Below, one piece after another: positions 1-8,559 of a stretch of 33,506 bases of DNA. The position numbers and the translations under genes are program-made. The notes beneath the pieces are model-generated. The model was not told where the DNA came from, did not search any database, and saw nothing but the letters and a program-made list of their open reading frames with translations. Location: positions 1-33,506 of the forward strand of contig JALWRC010000108.1 of NCBI GenBank assembly GCA_027080725.1, read 5' to 3'. Each line of letters begins with the position of its first letter. Positions within the stretch are counted from its first letter, which is position 1. This DNA comes from Saprospiraceae bacterium (GTDB lineage: Bacteria > Bacteroidota > Bacteroidia > Chitinophagales > Saprospiraceae).

Positions 1-2
1 CA

Positions 3-32
3 AAAGGTAAGAAAAATATGCCTAAAGCTTAA
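3..32 (+). CDS. possible 3' end of a gene cut by the window edge
   Basis: An open frame enters from the left edge and ends at TAA (30-32), reading a lysine-rich tail KGKKNMPKA. A strong terminator begins 30 bp downstream, as expected after a plus-strand gene. Only nine codons are visible, so no product can be named and this could be chance. Confidence 0.2.
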   Translation, partial: KGKKNMPKA

Positions 33-61
33 AGGAGCGCTTAGGGTTTTAATTCATATCC

Positions 62-97
62 AAAAAAAGGCATCCGGTGGACCGGATGCCTTTTTTT
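62..97. terminator. bidirectional intrinsic terminator
   Basis: Sixteen base pairs (62-77 with 82-97) enclose a TGGA loop. The GC-rich core GGCATCCGG/CCGGATGCC is flanked by A-runs on the left and T-runs on the right, so it works in both directions. It would end whatever enters from the left and back up the SRP RNA gene from the right. Confidence 0.9.
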
Positions 98-116
98 ATT
101 CTTTAAACAAAAAAAA

Positions 117-206
117 CGAGGAACATATCGCACCGCTACAACTCCCTACCCTTGCTGCATTTCTGCCCTGGGGGAATTCAGGAGGAGCTGGTCGTATATC
201 CCTCGC
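117..206 (-). ncRNA. ffs: signal recognition particle RNA (small SRP RNA, 4.5S type)
   Basis: RNA scaffold of the signal recognition particle; it binds Ffh and directs membrane and secreted proteins to the translocon. On the minus strand the apical domain reads CAGGGCAGAAATGCAGCA: a GNRA-type GAAA tetraloop closed by a short stem, with the CAGG and AGCA strands that form the Ffh-binding internal loop. The rest folds into one long rod: GAGG (204-201) pairs with CCTC (121-118), ATAT with ATAT, and the AGCTCC segment with GGGAGTT. A U-run (116-111) follows, then the terminator at 62-97. The gene starts 17 bp after the RluA stop. A -7-like box (TATACTTG, 213-206) sits right at its 5' end, so the exact start is uncertain by several bases; processing from an rluA read-through transcript is also possible. 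Confidence 0.85.
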
Positions 207-222
207 AAGTATATCAAACGCC

Positions 223-948
223 CTATTCGCGTTTTTGTTCCAACTTAAAATCCCAAAACAAATCCCATCTTCCTCCCTTAGGGAAGGGCGCTCTGATTCT
301 CAATGGCGTACGTTTGACGGGATGCTCGAAAAAAATCTGACCACTGTGCAAATACAATCTTTCTCCTGATTGAAAACGGCTTCCGTAGCGCCTGTCTCCC
401 ACGACAGGACACCCAACATGAGCGAATTGGGCTCTTATTTGGTGGGAACGCCCGGTATGAAGCTGTACTTCGAAGAGAAAGAACCCATCGATGTTTGCAA
501 CCAATTGGTATTCCAATACCGCTTTCTTTGTTTTCTTAGCTTTTTTGAAGGGGACATCCTTAACAATAAGCCGGTTTTTGGCTTCATCCTTGCGGACAAA
601 ATGCTCCAGGCGCCCACTAAATGAATCCGGTGCATTCTCGGTGAGGATGTAATAAGTCTTCTTGACCTTGCGCTCACGAAAGAGCTCGTTCATCCTGGAT
701 AGTGCTTTGCTTGTTTTAGCAAACACCAAAACACCCGTTGAAGGCCGGTCAAGCCGGTGGGTTACCCCCAGAAAGACATTGCCCGGTTTTTCATCTCTCA
801 AACGGATAAACTCCTTTACGTAATCAGGTAGCGTCTCATCATTTGTCCGGTCACCCTGGACTAAAATTCCGGCCGGCTTGTTGACCACTAAGAAGTGATT
901 GTCTTCGTAGAGAATAATGCGTTCGATATCGCGAAAGGTCATAGGCAA
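223..948 (-). CDS. RluA-family RNA pseudouridine synthase
   Basis: Converts specific uridines in rRNA or tRNA to pseudouridine. The 241-aa protein is the catalytic domain alone. The family signature HRLDRPSTG is at residues 64-72, with catalytic Asp67; the second conserved stretch, LHTGRSHQIRAQ, lies at about 163-174 and is followed by GDRRYG. There is no N-terminal S4 domain, so it belongs with the short RluA/RluC/RluD relatives (Bacteroidota often carry several), and the exact target base cannot be read from sequence. The start at 948 gives MPMTFRDIER; a second ATG two codons later is equally possible. It is the only protein gene in its transcription unit, with the SRP RNA immediately downstream. 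Confidence 0.88.
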   Translation of the reverse strand: MPMTFRDIERIILYEDNHFLVVNKPAGILVQGDRTNDETLPDYVKEFIRLRDEKPGNVFLGVTHRLDRPSTGVLVFAKTSKALSRMNELFRERKVKKTYYILTENAPDSFSGRLEHFVRKDEAKNRLIVKDVPFKKAKKTKKAVLEYQLVANIDGFFLFEVQLHTGRSHQIRAQFAHVGCPVVGDRRYGSRFQSGERLYLHSGQIFFEHPVKRTPLRIRAPFPKGGRWDLFWDFKLEQKRE

Positions 949-1011
949 AATTTAATGCTTCCACTCAAAGACAGCATTCAAATTAAAAAAAATCTTAAAT
1001 ATAAGTTCCCA

Positions 1012-1019
1012 CAAATGTA
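1012..1019 (-). promoter_or_regulatory. Bacteroidota -7 box for the RluA-family gene
   Basis: The minus strand reads TACATTTG, a full match to TAnnTTTG, giving a start near 1006 and a leader of about 58 nt. No TTTG is seen at the -33 position. Confidence 0.4.
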
Positions 1020-1177
1020 TAACATTATCCTCGAACCATACCTATTCGATTGGCAAACCCTTCCTATTTATTCTTCCGGCCGGGAAACCATTGATTTACC
1101 TTTAATATGAAATGGCTCTATTGACATCATATGGGAGTTAATTTTCATATATTTCCCTTTTAAAAACAAATATTTAA

Positions 1178-1189
1178 CCATTTCATACC
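1178..1189 (-). repeat. dispersed 12-mer GGTATGAAATGG, exact copy
   Basis: Exact copy on the minus strand in the AT-rich gap before ald. A partial copy in the opposite orientation (TATGAAATGG, 1104-1113) lies 64 bp away, making a wide inverted pair. Other exact copies: 10111, 28412, 29704, 32966. Confidence 0.75.
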
Positions 1190-1305
1190 TAAACAAACAT
1201 CTGCTCGCCCTATTCGTACCGCTCTACAAAGTACGCATTAAATATGTTTATAATTTTGCCATTTTTTTCATATAAATTACAAATTATCAAAATCAATCAT
1301 CCATT

Positions 1306-1321
1306 TGGCACGCAATTTGCA
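1306..1321 (+). promoter_or_regulatory. sigma-54 (RpoN) promoter, consensus match
   Basis: TGGCACGCAATTTGCA matches the RpoN consensus TGGCACGN4TTGCW at every specified position, with GG at -24 and GC at -12 and the required 12-bp offset. Transcription would begin about 1331-1334. The AT-rich upstream stretch (1000-1300) could hold an activator site, but no clear one is seen. No sigma-54 activator gene is in the window. Confidence 0.65.
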
Positions 1322-1331
1322 ATTAGGGTAA

Positions 1332-1402
1332 ACGTGAGTTTTGAGTTTTGGTTATTAAATGGAGATATGCCTGTATAATCCCTTATGCAGGCATTCTTCT
1401 TT
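1332..1402 (+). ncRNA. candidate short RNA or attenuated leader from the sigma-54 promoter
   Basis: A transcript from the sigma-54 promoter would meet a strong hairpin/U-tract terminator after only about 65-70 nt. That predicts either a small RNA or an attenuated leader of ald, which begins 170 bp further on. The segment has no convincing reading frame (an ATG after GGAGAT gives three codons). Inferred entirely from the promoter-terminator pair. Confidence 0.35.
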
Positions 1403-1406
1403 TTTC
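1367..1406 (+). terminator. intrinsic terminator ahead of ald
   Basis: Twelve consecutive pairs (1367-1378 with 1383-1394, one G-T wobble) close a 4-nt TCCC loop. The 3' side runs into TCTTCTTTTTT. It stands on the upstream side of ald, so it must end a transcript that starts before the gene. Confidence 0.75.
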
Positions 1407-1567
1407 CCCTAAGGGTTACCGGGAATGGGTCGAGTCCCTGAAACACCTATAATACAAGTGCATACAAATTCATAGAATTTATCAATCAAAATTCTGTATT
1501 AATTTTATTGCCTCTAAGGTCCAGGTATGAAATATTCAGCATATTTTTACGCCCAAAACCAAATATC

Positions 1568-2683
1568 ATGATAATAGGAGTACCAAAAGAAATTAAGCCC
1601 AATGAAAACCGGGTAGCACTCACCCCTGCAGGCACCCTGGAGCTAGTCAAAAGAGGGCACAAAGTCTACATCCAATCCACCGCCGGCCTGGGAAGTGGAT
1701 TCAAGGATGAAGAGTATCGAGAAGCCGGAGCTGAAATCCTTCCGACGATTGAAGCCGTCTATGACATTGCAGAGATGATCGTAAAGGTAAAAGAACCTAT
1801 CGAACCGGAGTATAAGCTCATCAAAGAAGGGCAGCTGCTATTTACCTATTTTCACTTTGCCTCAGGAGAGGCCTTGACACATGCCATGATAGAGCAAAAG
1901 CCCATTTGCTTGGCATATGAGACGGTTCAGCTAAGTGACCGTTCGTTGCCGTTACTGATCCCCATGTCAGAAGTAGCCGGCAGAATGGCTATTCAAGAAG
2001 GGGCAAAATATCTTGAAAAGCCCCAAAAAGGAAGAGGGATTCTTCTTGGGGGTGTACCTGGAGTTCCCCCTGCCAAAGTACTTATCTTAGGAGGAGGGAT
2101 TGTCGGCACCCAAGCTGCAAAGATGGCTGCAGGTCTGGGGGCAGACGTAACCATACTGGACATCAATCTACAGCGCCTACGCGAATTGGCGGACATTATG
2201 CCGGCCAATGTTTCGACTATTTTCTCCAATGAGTACAATATCCGGTCATTGATCAAGACCAGTGATTTAATCGTAGGAGCGGTATTGATCCCCGGAGCCA
2301 AAGCCCCTAATCTCATCACCAGGGGGATGCTTAAAGATATGAATCCGGGGACAGTCCTCGTAGATGTCGCCGTCGATCAGGGAGGATGTATCGAAACCTG
2401 TAAGCCGACGACCCATGCGGATCCAGTTTTTATTATTGATGACGTGTTGCACTATTGTGTAGCCAACATGCCGGGTGCTGTACCTTACACTTCTACCATT
2501 GCACTTACCAATGCAACCCTCCCCTACACCATTCGACTGGCGGAGAAAGGTTGGAAGCAAGCCTGTGCCGAAGATGAAGCACTAAAAAAAGGTCTGAACA
2601 TCATTGAGGGAACCGTTGTTTATAAAAGTGTAGCCGACACTTTTGGGCTGCCTTATACGCCGGTTGACGATTTTTTTGAGTAA
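1568..2683 (+). CDS. ald: alanine dehydrogenase
   Basis: NAD-dependent interconversion of L-alanine with pyruvate and ammonia, a cytosolic link between nitrogen and central carbon metabolism. Starting at 1568 gives 371 aa, the normal family length, and the standard N-terminus MIIGVPKEIKPNENRVALTP; the frame is open 20 codons further upstream, but that part is not family-like. Substrate-site residues Arg15, Lys75 and His96 are in place, the Rossmann motif GGGIVGTQAA lies around 175, and the conserved VDVAVDQGG is near 270. No strong Shine-Dalgarno is present. The sigma-54 promoter and terminator upstream (1306-1406) may control it. It stands alone; the next gene has its own promoter overlapping the ald stop. 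Confidence 0.95.
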   Translation: MIIGVPKEIKPNENRVALTPAGTLELVKRGHKVYIQSTAGLGSGFKDEEYREAGAEILPTIEAVYDIAEMIVKVKEPIEPEYKLIKEGQLLFTYFHFASGEALTHAMIEQKPICLAYETVQLSDRSLPLLIPMSEVAGRMAIQEGAKYLEKPQKGRGILLGGVPGVPPAKVLILGGGIVGTQAAKMAAGLGADVTILDINLQRLRELADIMPANVSTIFSNEYNIRSLIKTSDLIVGAVLIPGAKAPNLITRGMLKDMNPGTVLVDVAVDQGGCIETCKPTTHADPVFIIDDVLHYCVANMPGAVPYTSTIALTNATLPYTIRLAEKGWKQACAEDEALKKGLNIIEGTVVYKSVADTFGLPYTPVDDFFE

Positions 2684-2694
2684 AATTACTTTTG
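2663..2694 (+). promoter_or_regulatory. promoter of the small HTH gene
   Basis: TACTTTTG (2687-2694) fits the -7 box TAnnTTTG, with GTTG at 2663-2666 as a partial -33 element 20 bp upstream. The start would be near 2700, leaving about a 54-nt leader. The -7 box begins 4 bp after the ald stop codon. Confidence 0.5.
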
Positions 2695-2753
2695 TCTGTT
2701 CAAATTATCGTATTTTTAACCGTCTATCTACTAACGTTCAAAACTAACCGCAT

Positions 2754-3014
2754 ATGGAGATAATCATTTCCTTTAACGAACTTCGACAAATCAAACACAG
2801 CTTGCCTACAGGATCCGTCCACCGGATTGCCGAAGAGCTCAAAATAGAAGAGCAAACCGTTCGAAATTATTTTGGTGCCAAGAAGTACGAAGACGGAAAA
2901 ATTGTCGGAAAGCACATCAGCCCGGGCCCGAATGGTGGATTTGTCAAGCTCGAAGATGATACCATTCTCAATTTAGCCAAGCAAATATTAGAAGAGACCA
3001 CCGTGAAGCAATAA
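2754..3014 (+). CDS. small helix-turn-helix DNA-binding protein
   Basis: An 86-aa cytosolic protein of a type common in Bacteroidota and usually labelled only DNA-binding protein. Residues about 20-45 form a helix-turn-helix (GSVHRIAEELKIEEQTVRNY) in which a helix ending IAEELKI is followed by the recognition helix TVRNYFG. A glycine-rich stretch, HISPGPNGGFVKLEDD, is typical of the group and is followed by a short C-terminal helix. There is no ligand domain, so it may be a nucleoid-associated or simple regulatory protein; targets are unknown. It has its own promoter (2687). The weak hairpin with TTTTTCTTTTT just after the stop may be its terminator. Confidence 0.75.
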   Translation: MEIIISFNELRQIKHSLPTGSVHRIAEELKIEEQTVRNYFGAKKYEDGKIVGKHISPGPNGGFVKLEDDTILNLAKQILEETTVKQ

Positions 3015-3132
3015 CGCGCTCGCGGTTTTTCTTTTTGTATCGCTATTCTTCAGACGACTCCTACGGTTTGATTCAGGTATAAGGAAGGTAATTTATCTCT
3101 TCTTCCCCTTGCTAAGCGCAATGCTATTGAGT

Positions 3133-3200
3133 CGTGCCATCATGTTATGGCACAGCTGTAATCGAGTCGATCCTGAGGGGTGCACCTTCAGTCCGACATC
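3133..3200. other. two adjacent inverted repeats between the HTH gene and aroC
   Basis: The 249-bp gap between convergent genes holds two hairpins. The first is GTGCCAT/ATGGCAC (3134-3140 with 3147-3153, 6-nt loop). The second is about 3166-3200: CTGAGGG/CCTTCAG around GTGCA, with an outer GTCG/CGAC clamp. Neither is followed by a T-run, so they are not ordinary terminators. They could be 3' UTR structure of either gene. Confidence 0.4.
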
Positions 3201-3263
3201 ATTTTCGAGTGGCTTACTCCAAAACTGCGATTGCGGTCTGGCATAATTGTAGTCTAATGAAAA

Positions 3264-4346
3264 CTATAATTTTGATACCCGGGACAACAACCAGTAATCA
3301 CAAATCACGATTGCTGCCATAGCCTCAACGATAGGTACGGCGCGCGGTACTACACATGGGTCGTGTCGTCCTTGCGGAGTGTAGGATGTTTTTTGAAATG
3401 AGGTATCTATTGTTTCTTGTTCTTGAATAATCGTAGACACAGGTTTAAAAGCCGCTGAAAAAACAATATCCTGTCCATTGGATATGCCTCCTTGTACTCC
3501 ACCACTAAAATTGGATCGCGTGGTAACTTGTCCTCTATCGACATCGAAGAGGTCATTCATCTGTGAGCCTTTCATGCGGCAACTTTCGAATCCTGCACCA
3601 ATCTCAAATCCCTTACACGCAGGAATGCTCAAAACCGCACTTCCCAAGGCGGCATGCAGCTTATCAAAAACAGGCTCTCCCAATCCTGGTGGCACTCCTT
3701 GGACATGACATCGCACAATTCCTCCAAGGGTATCTCCAACCGCTTTTACTTCAAGAATGGCGTCCTCCATTGCTTTTGCTGTTGTAGAATCCGGACACCG
3801 TACAATATTGGACTCTATCGTTGATGCCAGTAGCGAGTTGTTATCCAACTCCTTCACCGAAATGTCTCCTATGGAATGCGTATAAGCAATAATGTTAATA
3901 CTTGCCTGTCGCAGTACCATTTTGGCTATGGCACCCGCAATGACCCTTGCCAGAGTTTCACGTGCTGAGGCACGTCCTCCACCCCTGTAATCGCGATGCC
4001 CATATTTAGCCCGGTAGGTATAGTCTGCATGAGAAGGACGAAAGATATCTTTGAGATTCGAATAATCTTGGGAGCGGTTATCCTTATTATAGACCATAAC
4101 CGCGATGGGTGTGCCTGTCGTAATCCCTTCGAAAACACCGGATAATATCACCGGCTCTTCGGGTTCCTTTCTTGCAGTGGTTACCTTGGATTGTCCAGGG
4201 CGACGTCTTTGGAGTTCAGATGCGATAAAGTCCGTATCAAAGGGCACCCCACTTGGGCATCCATCGACTATCACACCTACGGCAGCGCCATGAGACTCTC
4301 CAAATGTGGTCACTCGAAAGACCTTGCCAAATGTATTGCCTGCCAT
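3264..4346 (-). CDS. aroC: chorismate synthase
   Basis: Last step of the shikimate pathway: removes phosphate from 5-enolpyruvylshikimate-3-phosphate to give chorismate, using reduced FMN. The start at 4346 gives MAGNTFGKVFRVTTFGESHG, the usual N-terminus, and a 360-aa protein of normal length; a longer frame upstream would overlap the previous gene. FGESHG (14-19) and GGGRASARET are the family signatures for substrate and flavin binding, and SGVPFD and RRRPGQ are also present. It is the last gene of the minus-strand run, 14 bp after the TrmH-type gene. Confidence 0.96.
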   Translation of the reverse strand: MAGNTFGKVFRVTTFGESHGAAVGVIVDGCPSGVPFDTDFIASELQRRRPGQSKVTTARKEPEEPVILSGVFEGITTGTPIAVMVYNKDNRSQDYSNLKDIFRPSHADYTYRAKYGHRDYRGGGRASARETLARVIAGAIAKMVLRQASINIIAYTHSIGDISVKELDNNSLLASTIESNIVRCPDSTTAKAMEDAILEVKAVGDTLGGIVRCHVQGVPPGLGEPVFDKLHAALGSAVLSIPACKGFEIGAGFESCRMKGSQMNDLFDVDRGQVTTRSNFSGGVQGGISNGQDIVFSAAFKPVSTIIQEQETIDTSFQKTSYTPQGRHDPCVVPRAVPIVEAMAAIVICDYWLLSRVSKL

Positions 4347-4360
4347 AACACTAAGATTTG

Positions 4361-5008
4361 CTATTCTTCGATCCAATCTTCACGAATTGCCCAGTCTCCT
4401 TTGCTTCCCGTTTCGTGTCGTTGAATAAAATCATTCAGAAGTTCCTTGCTCATCGACTCTGTTTGAGTCGGATTGTTTATGTACATGTTTTTTGCATCAC
4501 GCTGTCTGAATACTTCATAAAGAATTATCCCGCAAGATACGGAGATATTCAGACTCTGTACCATGCCCATTTGCGGAATATACACATTGGCATCTGCGTA
4601 TTTCATCGCTGCTTCGGATAAGCCATCGGCCTCATTGCCCAATAAAAGCGCAAATCCTCCGGTAAAATCCGTTTGATAAATGCTGGTTGATTGGCGTACG
4701 AGATGGGTCGCGAGTATCCTTTGATACTTTTTCTTAACACGTGTCAGACATGTATCTAAATCCTGATAGAGGCGGACATCCACCCATTTGCGCGCGCCGG
4801 CGCTCGTCCTTTTGCCTACTTTTAATCCCCTCTTTTTGAGATGATCCTCCGTATAAATCACATAGATTTCGCTTATCCCCACGCTCTCACAAGAGCGCAA
4901 TACCGCAGCGATATTGTGTGCGTCATGAACATTTTCCAGCACCACCGTCATGTCCATTTGGCGCCTGGCGGCAGCATAGCGAATCCGCGCTTCTCTCTCC
5001 GGTGTCAT
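4361..5008 (-). CDS. trmH: SpoU/TrmH-family RNA 2'-O-methyltransferase
   Basis: SAM-dependent 2'-O-ribose methyltransferase of the SPOUT class, most like tRNA (Gm18) methyltransferase TrmH. All three SpoU motifs are visible: HNIAAVLRSC (about 31-40) with the catalytic Arg, GNEADGLS, and IPQMGMVQSLNISVS near the knot. At 215 aa, with a C-terminal tail after the knot and no N-terminal substrate-binding domain, it fits TrmH better than RlmB. Its ATG overlaps the stop of the DUF4296 gene by ATGA, so the two are probably translationally coupled. The precise substrate is inferred from the family. Confidence 0.85.
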   Translation of the reverse strand: MTPEREARIRYAAARRQMDMTVVLENVHDAHNIAAVLRSCESVGISEIYVIYTEDHLKKRGLKVGKRTSAGARKWVDVRLYQDLDTCLTRVKKKYQRILATHLVRQSTSIYQTDFTGGFALLLGNEADGLSEAAMKYADANVYIPQMGMVQSLNISVSCGIILYEVFRQRDAKNMYINNPTQTESMSKELLNDFIQRHETGSKGDWAIREDWIEE

Positions 5009-5370
5009 TTACCTCTTGGTTTTACTACTTGATCCCGCTTTCCCTTTGGCTTCAACTTCATTTCGGCCTCTGTCTCTGTCAGAATTTCAGAATATAGGGA
5101 ATCCAGCAAAGAAAAGTCATTCTTCAACAATTCGATATCGTGATCAATATCCCTTTGGGACACCTGATGAATTTTAGCAATTTGCTCCATATAAGCGCTA
5201 CTTATACTGTCCCTGTACTCCTTCGGGTGTCCATTGACATTGATATCTACGAGATACATATCCTTCACTACATCCCGGAGTTTTTGTCGGGACATATGGT
5301 ACACCTCGTGTTTTCTGCAAGAGACAAAAGCGACTAAAAACATGATGACAGATAGCGTTTCTTTCTTCAT
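5005..5370 (-). CDS. DUF4296-like small lipoprotein
   Basis: A protein of about 121 aa starting MKKETLSVIMFLVAFVSCRK: a short charged start, a hydrophobic stretch and a lipobox ending in Cys18, so it is likely lipid-anchored in the envelope. The mature part is mainly helical and charged (residues 25-121), with a VVKDMYLVDI segment and spacing like the Bacteroidota-specific DUF4296 family, whose role is not known. The frame is open upstream, but the lipobox and the ATGA overlap with the sixA stop at 5367-5370 fix the start. Its own stop overlaps the trmH start in the same way. The lysine-rich C-terminus is unusual for the mature end of a lipoprotein. Confidence 0.7.
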   Translation of the reverse strand: MKKETLSVIMFLVAFVSCRKHEVYHMSRQKLRDVVKDMYLVDINVNGHPKEYRDSISSAYMEQIAKIHQVSQRDIDHDIELLKNDFSLLDSLYSEILTETEAEMKLKPKGKRDQVVKPRGK

Positions 5371-5864
5371 TTTGGCAATATTTTGGGATAGTAGTAACCT
5401 CTCAATTGTACCCGCTGAAAGTCGAAAACAGACCAATCATCGATATCCGTCTCAACCCAAATAACGCCGCAGGTCGGAACATTGTCTGTCAATCCCGGCT
5501 GAACACTATTGGCGATATGGGTCATTGTAGGATTGTGCCCGATAAGAGCGACGTTATTAACTTCTTCCTCCAGCCCCCAAAGCTGTTGCAAATACATTTC
5601 CATTCCTTCCAGATAAAGGGATTGGACGGGTATGAAATACTCTTCCGGCACCTGAAAGGTTTGTTGAAAGTAGCGCCCCGTTTGCTGTGTGCGCCGTGCT
5701 ATACTCGGGTATATTCTATCCAGTCCCGAGACTTTCTCAAGCATGAAGTCAGCCATCTTAGGAGCATCTTTCTTTCCTCTGGAATTGAGAGGGCGCTCCC
5801 AGTCCTTTAGCCGAAGGTCTTCCCAACTCGACTTCGCATGTCTGATAAAAAGTATATTTCTCAT
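5367..5864 (-). CDS. sixA: SixA-type histidine phosphatase
   Basis: Small member of the histidine phosphatase superfamily (165 aa). The catalytic RHA motif is at the N-terminus (RHAKSSW, 8-14, phospho-acceptor His9), and a second conserved His is in ALIGHNPTM near residue 110. SixA in Escherichia coli acts on phosphohistidine of signalling or PTS proteins; here the substrate is unknown. The protein consists of the core domain only. Its stop overlaps the next gene by ATGA, and it follows the AAA+ gene by 73 bp. The mix of AAA+, phosphatase, lipoprotein, methyltransferase and aroC suggests a housekeeping operon, not one pathway. Confidence 0.85.
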   Translation of the reverse strand: MRNILFIRHAKSSWEDLRLKDWERPLNSRGKKDAPKMADFMLEKVSGLDRIYPSIARRTQQTGRYFQQTFQVPEEYFIPVQSLYLEGMEMYLQQLWGLEEEVNNVALIGHNPTMTHIANSVQPGLTDNVPTCGVIWVETDIDDWSVFDFQRVQLRGYYYPKILPK

Positions 5865-5937
5865 GCCTTATGTTATTTTGGATCGACCGAAAATTCCCAC
5901 CCCATAAGAGACTGAGGCCGGATCGAGATCCTCTTTC

Positions 5938-8559
5938 TCATGGTCTAAATCCTATCCGGGACCGCTCGAACAAACTATCGTAATTAATCTCCTTGTACGC
6001 TTTGATGTCCGCCGATGTAATCCGCTTTTTTTGTCCGATCTCTCTCCCGGCTTCCAGAAGTTTTGCAATCCGGATATTGTGATGTTTGATAATCTTTTCG
6101 ATCACCGCACGGATAACCCGAGCATTCCCAAAATACTTATCCCGTTTTCTGTATAACTCAAGGGTAATTTCCTTCAACATAATAGTCGCTTTGTTGTCGA
6201 GTTGATACCCTTCGGAAAAAATCATCTCAGAAGCGATCTTCATCAAGTCTTCTGCGTTATAGTCTTTAAACTTCAGCACTCTATCAAATCTGGAGGACAA
6301 GCCCGGATTGGATTTCAAAAACTTATCCATATTCTCAGGATAGCCCGCTACAAACAGGAAAAACTCGCCTCTCATATCCTCCATGCGCTTTACGATGGTA
6401 TTAATCGCTTCACTCCCATAATCCCCTGTACCGGCAGTGTGTTGGGTCAATGCATAGGCTTCATCAATAAAAAGCACACCGCCCTTGGCTTCATCGATTT
6501 TTTCTGCGGTTTTTATGGCAGTCTGCCCTAAGAATCCGGCCACCAACCCCTGGCGATCCGTCTCTACCATGTGTCCTCTCTCAAGGATGCCCAGTGCCTT
6601 ATAAATTTTAGTTAATATTCTAGCCACAGTAGTCTTTCCCGTCCCGGGATTCCCGACAAACACCGTATGAAGGGAGAATTTGGAGAGGACGTCATCTCCT
6701 ACCGCCAGATGATACTTAATCAAACTCACAAAATCATAAATTTCTTGTTTAATTTCCCGCATTCCGATCAAGGATTCCAATTCGTCCAAGGCCATTTGGA
6801 GTAACTGTTCATCTACGGGAATAATCGGCAAATGGTATTTGAGTCCTTTTTGTACCAATTTGACATCCTCTAACTTAATCGTAGAAAGCTCATGCTTATT
6901 GGTGGTCAGAGGAGTGCCTCCCATAACCCTCAGGCCCATCTGCACCTTGCACTTCTCAATCAAGTCAAAAACAAACCGTGCATTACCGAAAGTGCGATCA
7001 CGCGAACGGAAAGCTTTGAGTATCATATATTCGAGCTCTTTTCTCGCTCCGGGAGTAAGTCTTACTTCCTTCTTTGAACAGGCGATGTCCGCTATTTGGT
7101 ACAGCTCCTGTGGCAGATAGTCTTTGAAATCATAAAACAGTTTAAAACGCGACTTCAGCCCCGGATTAGAGTCCATAAAATGCTTCATCTCCTTGGGATA
7201 TCCCGCCACAATGATGGCGAGGTCACCCGGGCCATTGGACATCTCCTTGACCAATATTTCTATGACTTCTCTACCGAAATCTTTACTATCGTCATTGGTC
7301 CTCGCCAGGGCATACGCTTCATCGATAAAAAGCACACCACCCCGGGCTTGATCAATCACCTTCTTCACTTTTGGTGCAGTTTGGCCGATGTATTCCCCGA
7401 CTAAATCCACACGGTCCACGGTATGCACATGTCCTTTTGACAAGAGTCCCATCTTATGATACAACATACCCATCATCGCAGCGACGGTGGTTTTGCCTGT
7501 CCCCGGATTGCCGGAAAAAACCGAGTGAATATTAATTTCTTCATCCTCCTTGAATCCATTCTTCTTTCGGTGTTGCAAAAACTTAATGTACTTGGCGTGT
7601 TCCCTTACCTGACGCTTAATGCCTTCCAGACCAACCAAATTATCCAACTCTTGCAACACTTCCTCAAAAGTCAAGGGTTGCAGATGAGCGGGGATGCCCC
7701 CCGGCGCTGGGCCGTATTCATAGGAAACTTCACAAAGCCCTTCTTCAAAAAACTCATCCACTTCAAAATAGGCCGTCGCCACAATTCTATCTAAGAAAAT
7801 CAAATCCATGCTATAAGAACCGGGACGCCAAGACCCTTTGGTATTGCTCCCCCACCCAATCGATAGACTTATCTCCTCTTCGCCCTTATGGATGGTATTC
7901 ATCCGGATTACTTGTCCTTTGAGTTCGTGGACTTCATTAATAAACTTAACGATGAGTTCGCACTGCCAATCTCGCTGAATGTTGAGGTTCTTTAGTTTTA
8001 TTTCGGCATAAATATACCTCGTCTCATCTGCGCTAAACACATGATAATAATCCCGTTCGTCCAAGTGAACGTCCTCATAGTCTCCTTCATACAGTTTGAC
8101 AGAAGTCACTTCAAAGTAGGGATTGACGTCTGCATTGGCTGACTCAGCATGCTCGATGTAGAAGTATTTTACACCGGCCTTGACTCCGTCCACCCAAGCC
8201 TCCCAAAAATAGGTACCCCTTTTCCAAAAGCGACCGGGCTCCTTGTGTCCCCATCCTTCACGAACATACACCATGTGTTGGTGTTTCCCCACTTTTTTAC
8301 GCACTTGAATTTTGCATACTTCCCGCAATTTGTCCGCCTCGACGTGAAAGCATTTGAGTTCGACATTGGCCACCCAATTTTCCTGTTCTATTTGCTTATT
8401 AATTAAGCCTAGTTCGGCATAGATATAAGTCGTCTCCGCCGCATCAAATACCTGGCGGTACTTCTTCTGATTGTGTGCCAACCATTCTGTGGAGGCATAG
8501 GTTTTTAAGCTAAAGAACTTAAACTTAGCCTTATGGTCCTGTTGGGGAAATTCAGTCAT
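5938..8559 (-). CDS. tandem CbbX/SpoVK-type AAA+ ATPase with duplicated N-terminal domain
   Basis: An 873-aa cytosolic protein with two complete AAA+ modules of the CbbX/SpoVK/EccA class. Module 1 (about 297-570): Walker A GNPGTGKTT 350-358, Walker B VLFIDEAYAL 409-418, AGYP 452-455, NPGLKSRF 465-472, sensor-2 region GNAR 525-528. Module 2 (about 582-850): Walker A 636-644, Walker B 695-704, AGYP 738-741, NPGLSSRF 751-758, GNAR 811-814. Both look active. Ahead of them lie two copies of a domain of about 100 residues (34-137 and 171-268) sharing a VF-x-A-x-ET-x-YIYAE start, a W followed by hydrophobic strands, a GWG and a W-x-x-G-x-Y; the composition is beta-rich. I do not recognise this domain. 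Relatives remodel protein complexes (CbbX acts on Rubisco). The target here is unknown. First gene of the minus-strand run; its probable leader contains a large inverted repeat. Confidence 0.85.
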   Translation of the reverse strand: MTEFPQQDHKAKFKFFSLKTYASTEWLAHNQKKYRQVFDAAETTYIYAELGLINKQIEQENWVANVELKCFHVEADKLREVCKIQVRKKVGKHQHMVYVREGWGHKEPGRFWKRGTYFWEAWVDGVKAGVKYFYIEHAESANADVNPYFEVTSVKLYEGDYEDVHLDERDYYHVFSADETRYIYAEIKLKNLNIQRDWQCELIVKFINEVHELKGQVIRMNTIHKGEEEISLSIGWGSNTKGSWRPGSYSMDLIFLDRIVATAYFEVDEFFEEGLCEVSYEYGPAPGGIPAHLQPLTFEEVLQELDNLVGLEGIKRQVREHAKYIKFLQHRKKNGFKEDEEINIHSVFSGNPGTGKTTVAAMMGMLYHKMGLLSKGHVHTVDRVDLVGEYIGQTAPKVKKVIDQARGGVLFIDEAYALARTNDDSKDFGREVIEILVKEMSNGPGDLAIIVAGYPKEMKHFMDSNPGLKSRFKLFYDFKDYLPQELYQIADIACSKKEVRLTPGARKELEYMILKAFRSRDRTFGNARFVFDLIEKCKVQMGLRVMGGTPLTTNKHELSTIKLEDVKLVQKGLKYHLPIIPVDEQLLQMALDELESLIGMREIKQEIYDFVSLIKYHLAVGDDVLSKFSLHTVFVGNPGTGKTTVARILTKIYKALGILERGHMVETDRQGLVAGFLGQTAIKTAEKIDEAKGGVLFIDEAYALTQHTAGTGDYGSEAINTIVKRMEDMRGEFFLFVAGYPENMDKFLKSNPGLSSRFDRVLKFKDYNAEDLMKIASEMIFSEGYQLDNKATIMLKEITLELYRKRDKYFGNARVIRAVIEKIIKHHNIRIAKLLEAGREIGQKKRITSADIKAYKEINYDSLFERSRIGFRP

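Follow-up and report, generated by a model that had tools for sequence, protein, structure and literature searches.

A predicted sigma-54-dependent small RNA family of the Saprospiraceae with a seed complementary to the start regions of secreted surface proteins

The window, i.e., the whole stretch of 33,506 nucleotides that was analyzed (contig JALWRC010000108.1 of assembly GCA_027080725.1), probably contains one copy of a family of regulatory RNAs of ~70 bases that is found in the Saprospiraceae and is under sigma-54 control, as judged from sequence comparisons. It is likely, and we hold this view with fairly good confidence, that this predicted RNA of ~70 nt (1331-1400) acts in trans by pairing with the start regions of mRNAs for surface proteins, thereby lowering their expression. 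The promoter, the conserved RNA, the covarying terminator, the complementarity to start codons, and the presence of rpoN and of genes for activators in the genome are evident from the sequence. The features of the locus are listed in Table 1.

Table 1. Features at and next to the putative small RNA gene (positions in the window)
Feature	Position	Strand	Basis or remark
Sigma-54 (-24/-12) promoter TGGCACGCAATTTGCA	1306..1321	+	Correct spacing; sequence match and comparative support
Predicted 5' end of the RNA with a lineage-specific additional TGAGTTT repeat	1331..1343	+	Start-spacing rule of sigma-54 promoters
Near-invariant seed AGTTTTGGTTATTAAAT	1344..1360	+	Predicted to be unpaired; complements translation starts of targets
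Linker GGAGAT	1361..1366	+	Complementarity continues across the linker at the site of the 35-aa ORF
Terminator stem-loop	1367..1394	+	Stem of 12 bp (4 G-C) with a TCCC loop, then TCTTCTTTTTT; compensatory changes in relatives
T-rich tail of the terminator	1395..1405	+	Sequence
ald (alanine dehydrogenase), frequent neighbor, probably outside the unit	1568..2683	+	Name as in the first-pass annotation

The first-pass annotation had described a sigma-54 promoter followed by a hairpin with a T-run, and both are indeed present ahead of ald, separated by 45 bases. When both strands of the whole window were scanned, an exact TGGCAC-N5-TTGC was found only at this promoter; with one mismatch allowed, there were four matches versus 1.03 expected. 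The terminator pattern by itself is at chance level, with seven terminator-like sites versus 5.9 expected in positions 1-6000. Transcription from sigma-54 promoters starts ~12 nt past the GC of the -12 element. The predicted transcript (1331-1406) folds with a free energy of -21.2 kcal/mol (z -3.8), which is better than 200 out of 200 shuffled sequences. The minimum free energy and centroid structures of the short RNA are one identical hairpin, and the mean unpaired probability of the seed is 0.81. The promoter-hairpin unit is taken as real because promoter, seed and hairpin co-occur in relatives, and this comparative support is decisive. The small RNA under sigma-54 control that had been proposed earlier is thus supported by this conserved set of elements, of which the promoter-hairpin pair is retained in relatives, and by the presence of rpoN (an ORF of 503 aa) in the genome. 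The sigma-54 activator domain gave eight hits in the genome, two of which were strong; thus, two strong enhancer-binding proteins are encoded, one with, by eye, a receiver-like N-terminus. The genome also encodes one RRM protein of 81-87 aa. An Rfam search revealed no match at 1306-1406. Elsewhere in the window, a small SRP RNA (Rfam RF04183) is located at 112-213 on the reverse strand, and it is adjoined by a strong hairpin with A and T runs (62-97).

A search with positions 1270-1590 as the query in 60 related genomes yielded matches in seven, and short stretches located between the promoter and the hairpin recurred elsewhere too. The pattern AGTTTTGGTTATTAAWT is present in 37 of 150 genomes of the family, a number in which sRNA genes and target sites are pooled, versus three hits for the reversed pattern used as a control. 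The loci with this pattern fall into three classes. Type B, which resembles the copy in the window, accounts for 29 rows and type A for 24; the third class comprises the remaining places, and in many of these the reverse complement of the seed is found directly 5' of a start codon. Type B usually reads TATGAGTTTTGGTTATTAAATTGAGTAATGCCCGTG...CACGGGC and type A GTGTAAGTTTTGGTTATTAAATTGTAAAATTCGTTTTTGCTC...GAGC, each followed by a T-run, and the seed is common to both. In type B, the seed comprises 12 consecutive columns that are invariant across 29 copies. Double changes preserve five of the eight pairs of the terminator stem in type B and four of the eight in type A; these counts are descriptive, since the loci in the models had been picked from hits. 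Type A is also found in tandem arrays of four copies each (L151, 2247-3401; L152, 2695-3328), where five of the six copies inspected have a sigma-54 site of their own and one copy in L152 has no visible site. A second conserved box, TTGTAARATTCGTTT, is present in type A, e.g., in L030 (1738-1802, reverse strand). By eye, it resembles the complement of codons 2-7 of several targets; the order is wrong for a single continuous duplex with the targets, and the box could pair weakly with the seed of the type A RNA itself.

Covariance models detected type B in 120 and type A in 143 of 298 genomes of the family at E ≤ 0.01; the models also picked up copies of the other type. At stricter limits, 79 of 150 genomes were sRNA-positive (32 with type B, 68 with type A, and 21 with both), where positive means R1 at E ≤ 1e-6 or R2 at E ≤ 1e-4, weaker or unlisted hits were scored negative, and five genomes (R2 E 1e-4 to 1.1e-3) were added to the positive set for their seed-pattern hits. 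The genome of the window itself contains one strong copy, and a second model hit is weak. Searching one genome per species (84,980 species) with the exact type B pattern yielded 57 loci, which according to the record titles belong to Saprospiraceae (46), Aureispira (1), Saprospirales (1), Chitinophagales (1), or are named only Bacteroidetes or Bacteroidota (8); all of these records are MAGs. The type A model matched three of 395 genomes of the class, all from the family of the window, a search that is informative for type A only, as the window's own type B copy was below detection at that limit.

The 57 type B loci were collected by RNA sequence alone, irrespective of the promoter, and 54 of them have a sigma-54 site (TGGCA[CT]-N5-TT[GT]) within 45 nt upstream; the background for this test, with the last base dropped, was 41 of 18,568 windows (0.22%). 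In these loci, the seed is located 13-23 nt past the -12 position; given the start rule of ~12 nt, the RNA would thus begin 1-11 nt ahead of it. A seed-like match is present within 700 nt upstream of the type B copy in 31 of the 57 loci. Among the 36 type-A-like copies listed, 27 have a sigma-54 site and four a sigma-A site, and five were assigned neither by the script; two of these five appear sigma-54-like by eye. L290, a type-A-like copy in which the script found no promoter, may not be an sRNA.

In the sigma-A group of type A, a dyad, ACATATT-N12-AATATGT, is found at a near-fixed position. Its score reaches at least 11 of 14 in 43 of 44 sigma-A type A promoters, among which there may be near-identical strains, versus 3.3% of the shuffled sequences. 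Of 54 type B promoters, 17 reach a score of 11, 15 with the dyad at one common position relative to the -24 box, versus 1.3% of the shuffles. In the lineage of the window, the dyad is unconvincing, with scores of 9 in the window and 10 in the copy of G001 (L197). A tentative and rather doubtful extension is that many Saprospiraceae have a switch of twin sRNAs, in which sigma-A and sigma-54 promoters would drive the same antisense seed from one shared operator, ACATATT-N12-AATATGT, which abuts the -24 box in type B. One regulator and two forms of the polymerase might then set a surface layer of T9SS proteins with cohesin and dockerin domains, and the lineage of the window would have kept only the sigma-54 arm.

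A GTG at 1334 opens a frame of 14 codons (VSFEFWLLNGDMPV, 1334-1378, forward strand) that overlaps the seed, and the locus could therefore be read as a gene for a short peptide. This frame is, by eye, also open in G001 and G067, and many type B copies read ATG-AGT-TTT-GGT-TAT-TAA. However, the general type B frame comprises only five codons, several copies have no ATG there, and type A reads GTG-TAA in 24 out of 24 copies. Moreover, the conserved bases follow the pairing site and not the reading frame, and we consider a peptide very improbable.

Two further suggestions of the first-pass annotation, i.e., an attenuated leader of ald and a link to nitrogen, depend on the neighboring gene. The ORF at 1568-2683, which we take to be ald, has its ATG ~165 bases past the terminator. 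If the RNA were a cis-acting leader, sigma-54 would start the ald transcript, the hairpin would end it early, and read-through would be regulated. Consistent with such a role, 19 of the 57 type B loci have ald downstream in the same orientation and no more than 600 bases away, and the sequence before its ATG is alike in G000 and G001. In total, an ald-like ORF is present in the stored flank of 25 loci, with the remaining ones located further downstream (four) or at the other side and on the other strand (two). However, 38 of the 57 loci have a different arrangement: in 32, the flank stored for the locus contains no ald-like ORF, although these flanks extend at least 900 bases downstream in 52 of the 57. 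Furthermore, the short RNA, which is the part covered by the folding, adopts a single hairpin, conservation is centered on an unpaired seed that has complements in other mRNAs, and a weak duplex is predicted between the sRNA and the ald start (-19.3 kcal/mol). Thus, a role as ald leader is quite unlikely. The nitrogen link has the adjacency of ald as its only basis and is unsupported; the mRNAs identified as targets encode secreted surface proteins. Other neighbors of the 57 loci are ORFs that presumably correspond to rluA (24 loci) and mqnA (20 loci). Directly 5' of the ald start, GCATATTTTTACGCCCAAAACCAAATATCATG (1535-1570, forward strand) is identical in the sister genome G001.

In the genome of the window, three sites complementary to the RNA were found. 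One of them is at the start codon of a gene for a protein of 179 aa with a signal-peptide-like start (L075; duplex of -29.4 kcal/mol) and another at the start codon of a hydrophobic ORF of 35 aa (L076, with homologue L080; -39.6 kcal/mol), where the two differences from perfect complementarity both leave G-U pairs. The third is in the 5' leader of a gene for a T9SS protein of 1,632 aa (L298, with homologue L085; -38.5 kcal/mol), in which cohesin scored over the cut-off and dockerin below it. The doubled TGAGTTT of the window's lineage is mirrored in the leader of this giant protein in both L298 and L085. The site is located 184 nt before the ATG, and such a distance from the start codon argues against the proposed mode of action. 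With the antisense strand of the sRNA gene set aside, these three sites are the top windows of the duplex scan, and the next one is at -27.8 kcal/mol; the background had a mean of -16.1 kcal/mol and an sd of 3.1 (4,150 windows covering about a tenth of a megabase, the three sites included). The site in L075, by itself, would not stand out at the scale of a whole genome. A site at the HU gene (L077) was rejected as a target, as its duplex (-18.5 kcal/mol) is at background level.

Across the family, the reverse-complement sites commonly have the form TTTAATAACCAAAACTCAATCTC-ATG, with a near-fixed gap, and in the extended sites ACT is mostly separated from ATG by 7 nt; ORFs with signal-peptide-like starts follow. 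The predicted targets are of two classes, i.e., giant T9SS proteins and small secreted proteins. Complete ORFs of the giants encode 1,375-1,782 aa. Five giants were scanned: the T9SS sorting tail was over the NCBIfam cut-off in all five and over that of Pfam in one, whereas in Pfam cohesin was over the cut-off in two, and dockerin exceeded it in two and fell short of it in the remaining three. Four small proteins were scanned, and no family match over the cut-off was obtained for these. Giant-protein sites are present in 14 of 79 sRNA-positive versus one of 71 sRNA-negative genomes (P 7e-4), and the extended complement TTAATAACCAAAACT in 16 of 79 versus three of 71 (P 3e-3). The two subsets were delimited post hoc, when the sites had already been seen, and the P values are uncorrected for the shared ancestry of the genomes.

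In 150 genomes, the short site TAACCAAAACT-N5-9-ATG gave fewer hits than the reversed pattern used as its control (141 versus 188), and since this generic site is not above the control, only extended or family-specific sites were used as evidence. Signal-peptide-like ORFs follow the short site in 52 of 81 cases in sRNA-positive and in 26 of 50 in sRNA-negative genomes (P 0.20); this contrast covers 131 sites (133 minus two sRNA genes), which are part of the short-site list, from which previously recognized sRNA genes had been removed along with some further sites. In addition, TAACCAAAACT is found before the ATG of SusC-like genes in the sRNA-negative genomes G021 (L334) and G149 (L333), and it may represent a general A-rich start region. 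Five genomes (G073, G093, G026, G162, and G109) have convincing target leaders and no convincing sRNA; the laxer rerun of the sRNA search on these leader-only genomes used the type A model alone. Inspection of 20 loci with the exact sigma-54 type A seed pattern revealed no clear new targets. Cognate duplexes were stronger than non-cognate ones only where the lineage has a variant sRNA (G000, G001, G111, and G135), in a comparison of 25 listed sites from 21 genomes, in which one search pattern passed over some loci and the type B RNAs, including those of G000 and G001, were of unequal length. The variant type A RNAs of G111 and G135 fit their own targets best, with the exception of each other.

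From these elements, we infer that the RNA is transcribed and that it represses rather than activates, and the same applies to the inducing signal and to any helper protein. An activated enhancer-binding protein would allow the sigma-54 polymerase to start the RNA from the promoter, and the transcript would stop at the hairpin (1367-1400), yielding an RNA of ~70 nt. Its unpaired 5' seed would pair with mRNAs around the start codons of secreted surface proteins, and the duplex over the start region would most likely prevent access of the ribosome, resulting in repression. In response to a sigma-54 signal, the cell would thus reduce its surface layer, whilst type A copies, driven by sigma-54 or sigma-A, would place the same seed under other promoters. 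The RNA could also be a genuine sigma-54 transcript whose main role is to activate or stabilize the mRNAs of surface proteins or to titrate an RNA-binding protein, e.g., one of the RRM type. An RRM protein is encoded in the genome of the window, and the FopS RNA of Bacteroides is described as binding to RbpB (PMC11697453). However, at most of the extended sites, the pairing covers bases adjoining the start codon. Pairing next to a start codon is usually repressive, and we regard a main role in activation or titration as unlikely.

To our knowledge, little is known about base-pairing sRNAs in Bacteroidota beyond Bacteroides. CrcZ and GlmY are sigma-54-dependent small RNAs that act by protein sequestration; the RNA described here shares their sigma-54 dependence, as predicted from its promoter, but its conserved part is an antisense seed. 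The Rfam library includes a Qrr family, and in an Rfam scan of 12 loci of the new family (to E 1), no Qrr match was obtained and no family was above threshold; membership of Qrr was rejected on this basis. An overlap of one locus (L155) with BTnc005 (24.5 bits versus a gathering score of 174.8; E 0.13) was attributed to chance, and it adjoins a palindrome that also attracts microRNA models. The Qrr RNAs of Vibrionaceae are similar in being transcribed from a sigma-54 promoter (PMC10162802). They also base-pair in trans and, in several genomes, occur as sibling copies, and they differ in phylum, seed and targets, the genome of the window having one strong copy. Qrr is under LuxO or SypG control, and the two strong enhancer-binding proteins of the window's genome are unassigned. 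The terms sRNA and small RNA are absent from the main text of a survey of sigma-54 regulons (PMC12316311), and the best-ranked literature matches listed contained no report of this family or of a sigma-54-driven base-pairing sRNA for Bacteroidota. Because the family comes with a promoter type, a seed and candidate targets, it makes the role of sigma-54 in Saprospiraceae testable, and it offers a possible handle on the control of their giant secreted surface proteins.

FopS and GibS are paralogous sRNAs of Bacteroides thetaiotaomicron (PMC11697453). They resemble the Saprospiraceae RNAs in being from Bacteroidota, in a length of ~65-70 nt, in the presence of several copies, and in a conserved 5' seed whose pairing sites in the mRNAs of outer-surface proteins are close to the start codon. 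Both systems also include an RRM protein. Whereas FopS has sigma-ABfr promoters and represses SusC-like transporters, the Saprospiraceae family has mostly sigma-54 promoters, with the sigma-A type in one group of type A, and matches giant T9SS proteins and small secreted proteins. The best reading is that the RNA would be a sigma-54-dependent sRNA that pairs in trans with ribosome-binding sites and works like Qrr, as regards sigma-54 control, or FopS, as regards size, the location of the seed and targets at start codons, where the likeness to FopS is one of description rather than of compared sequences.
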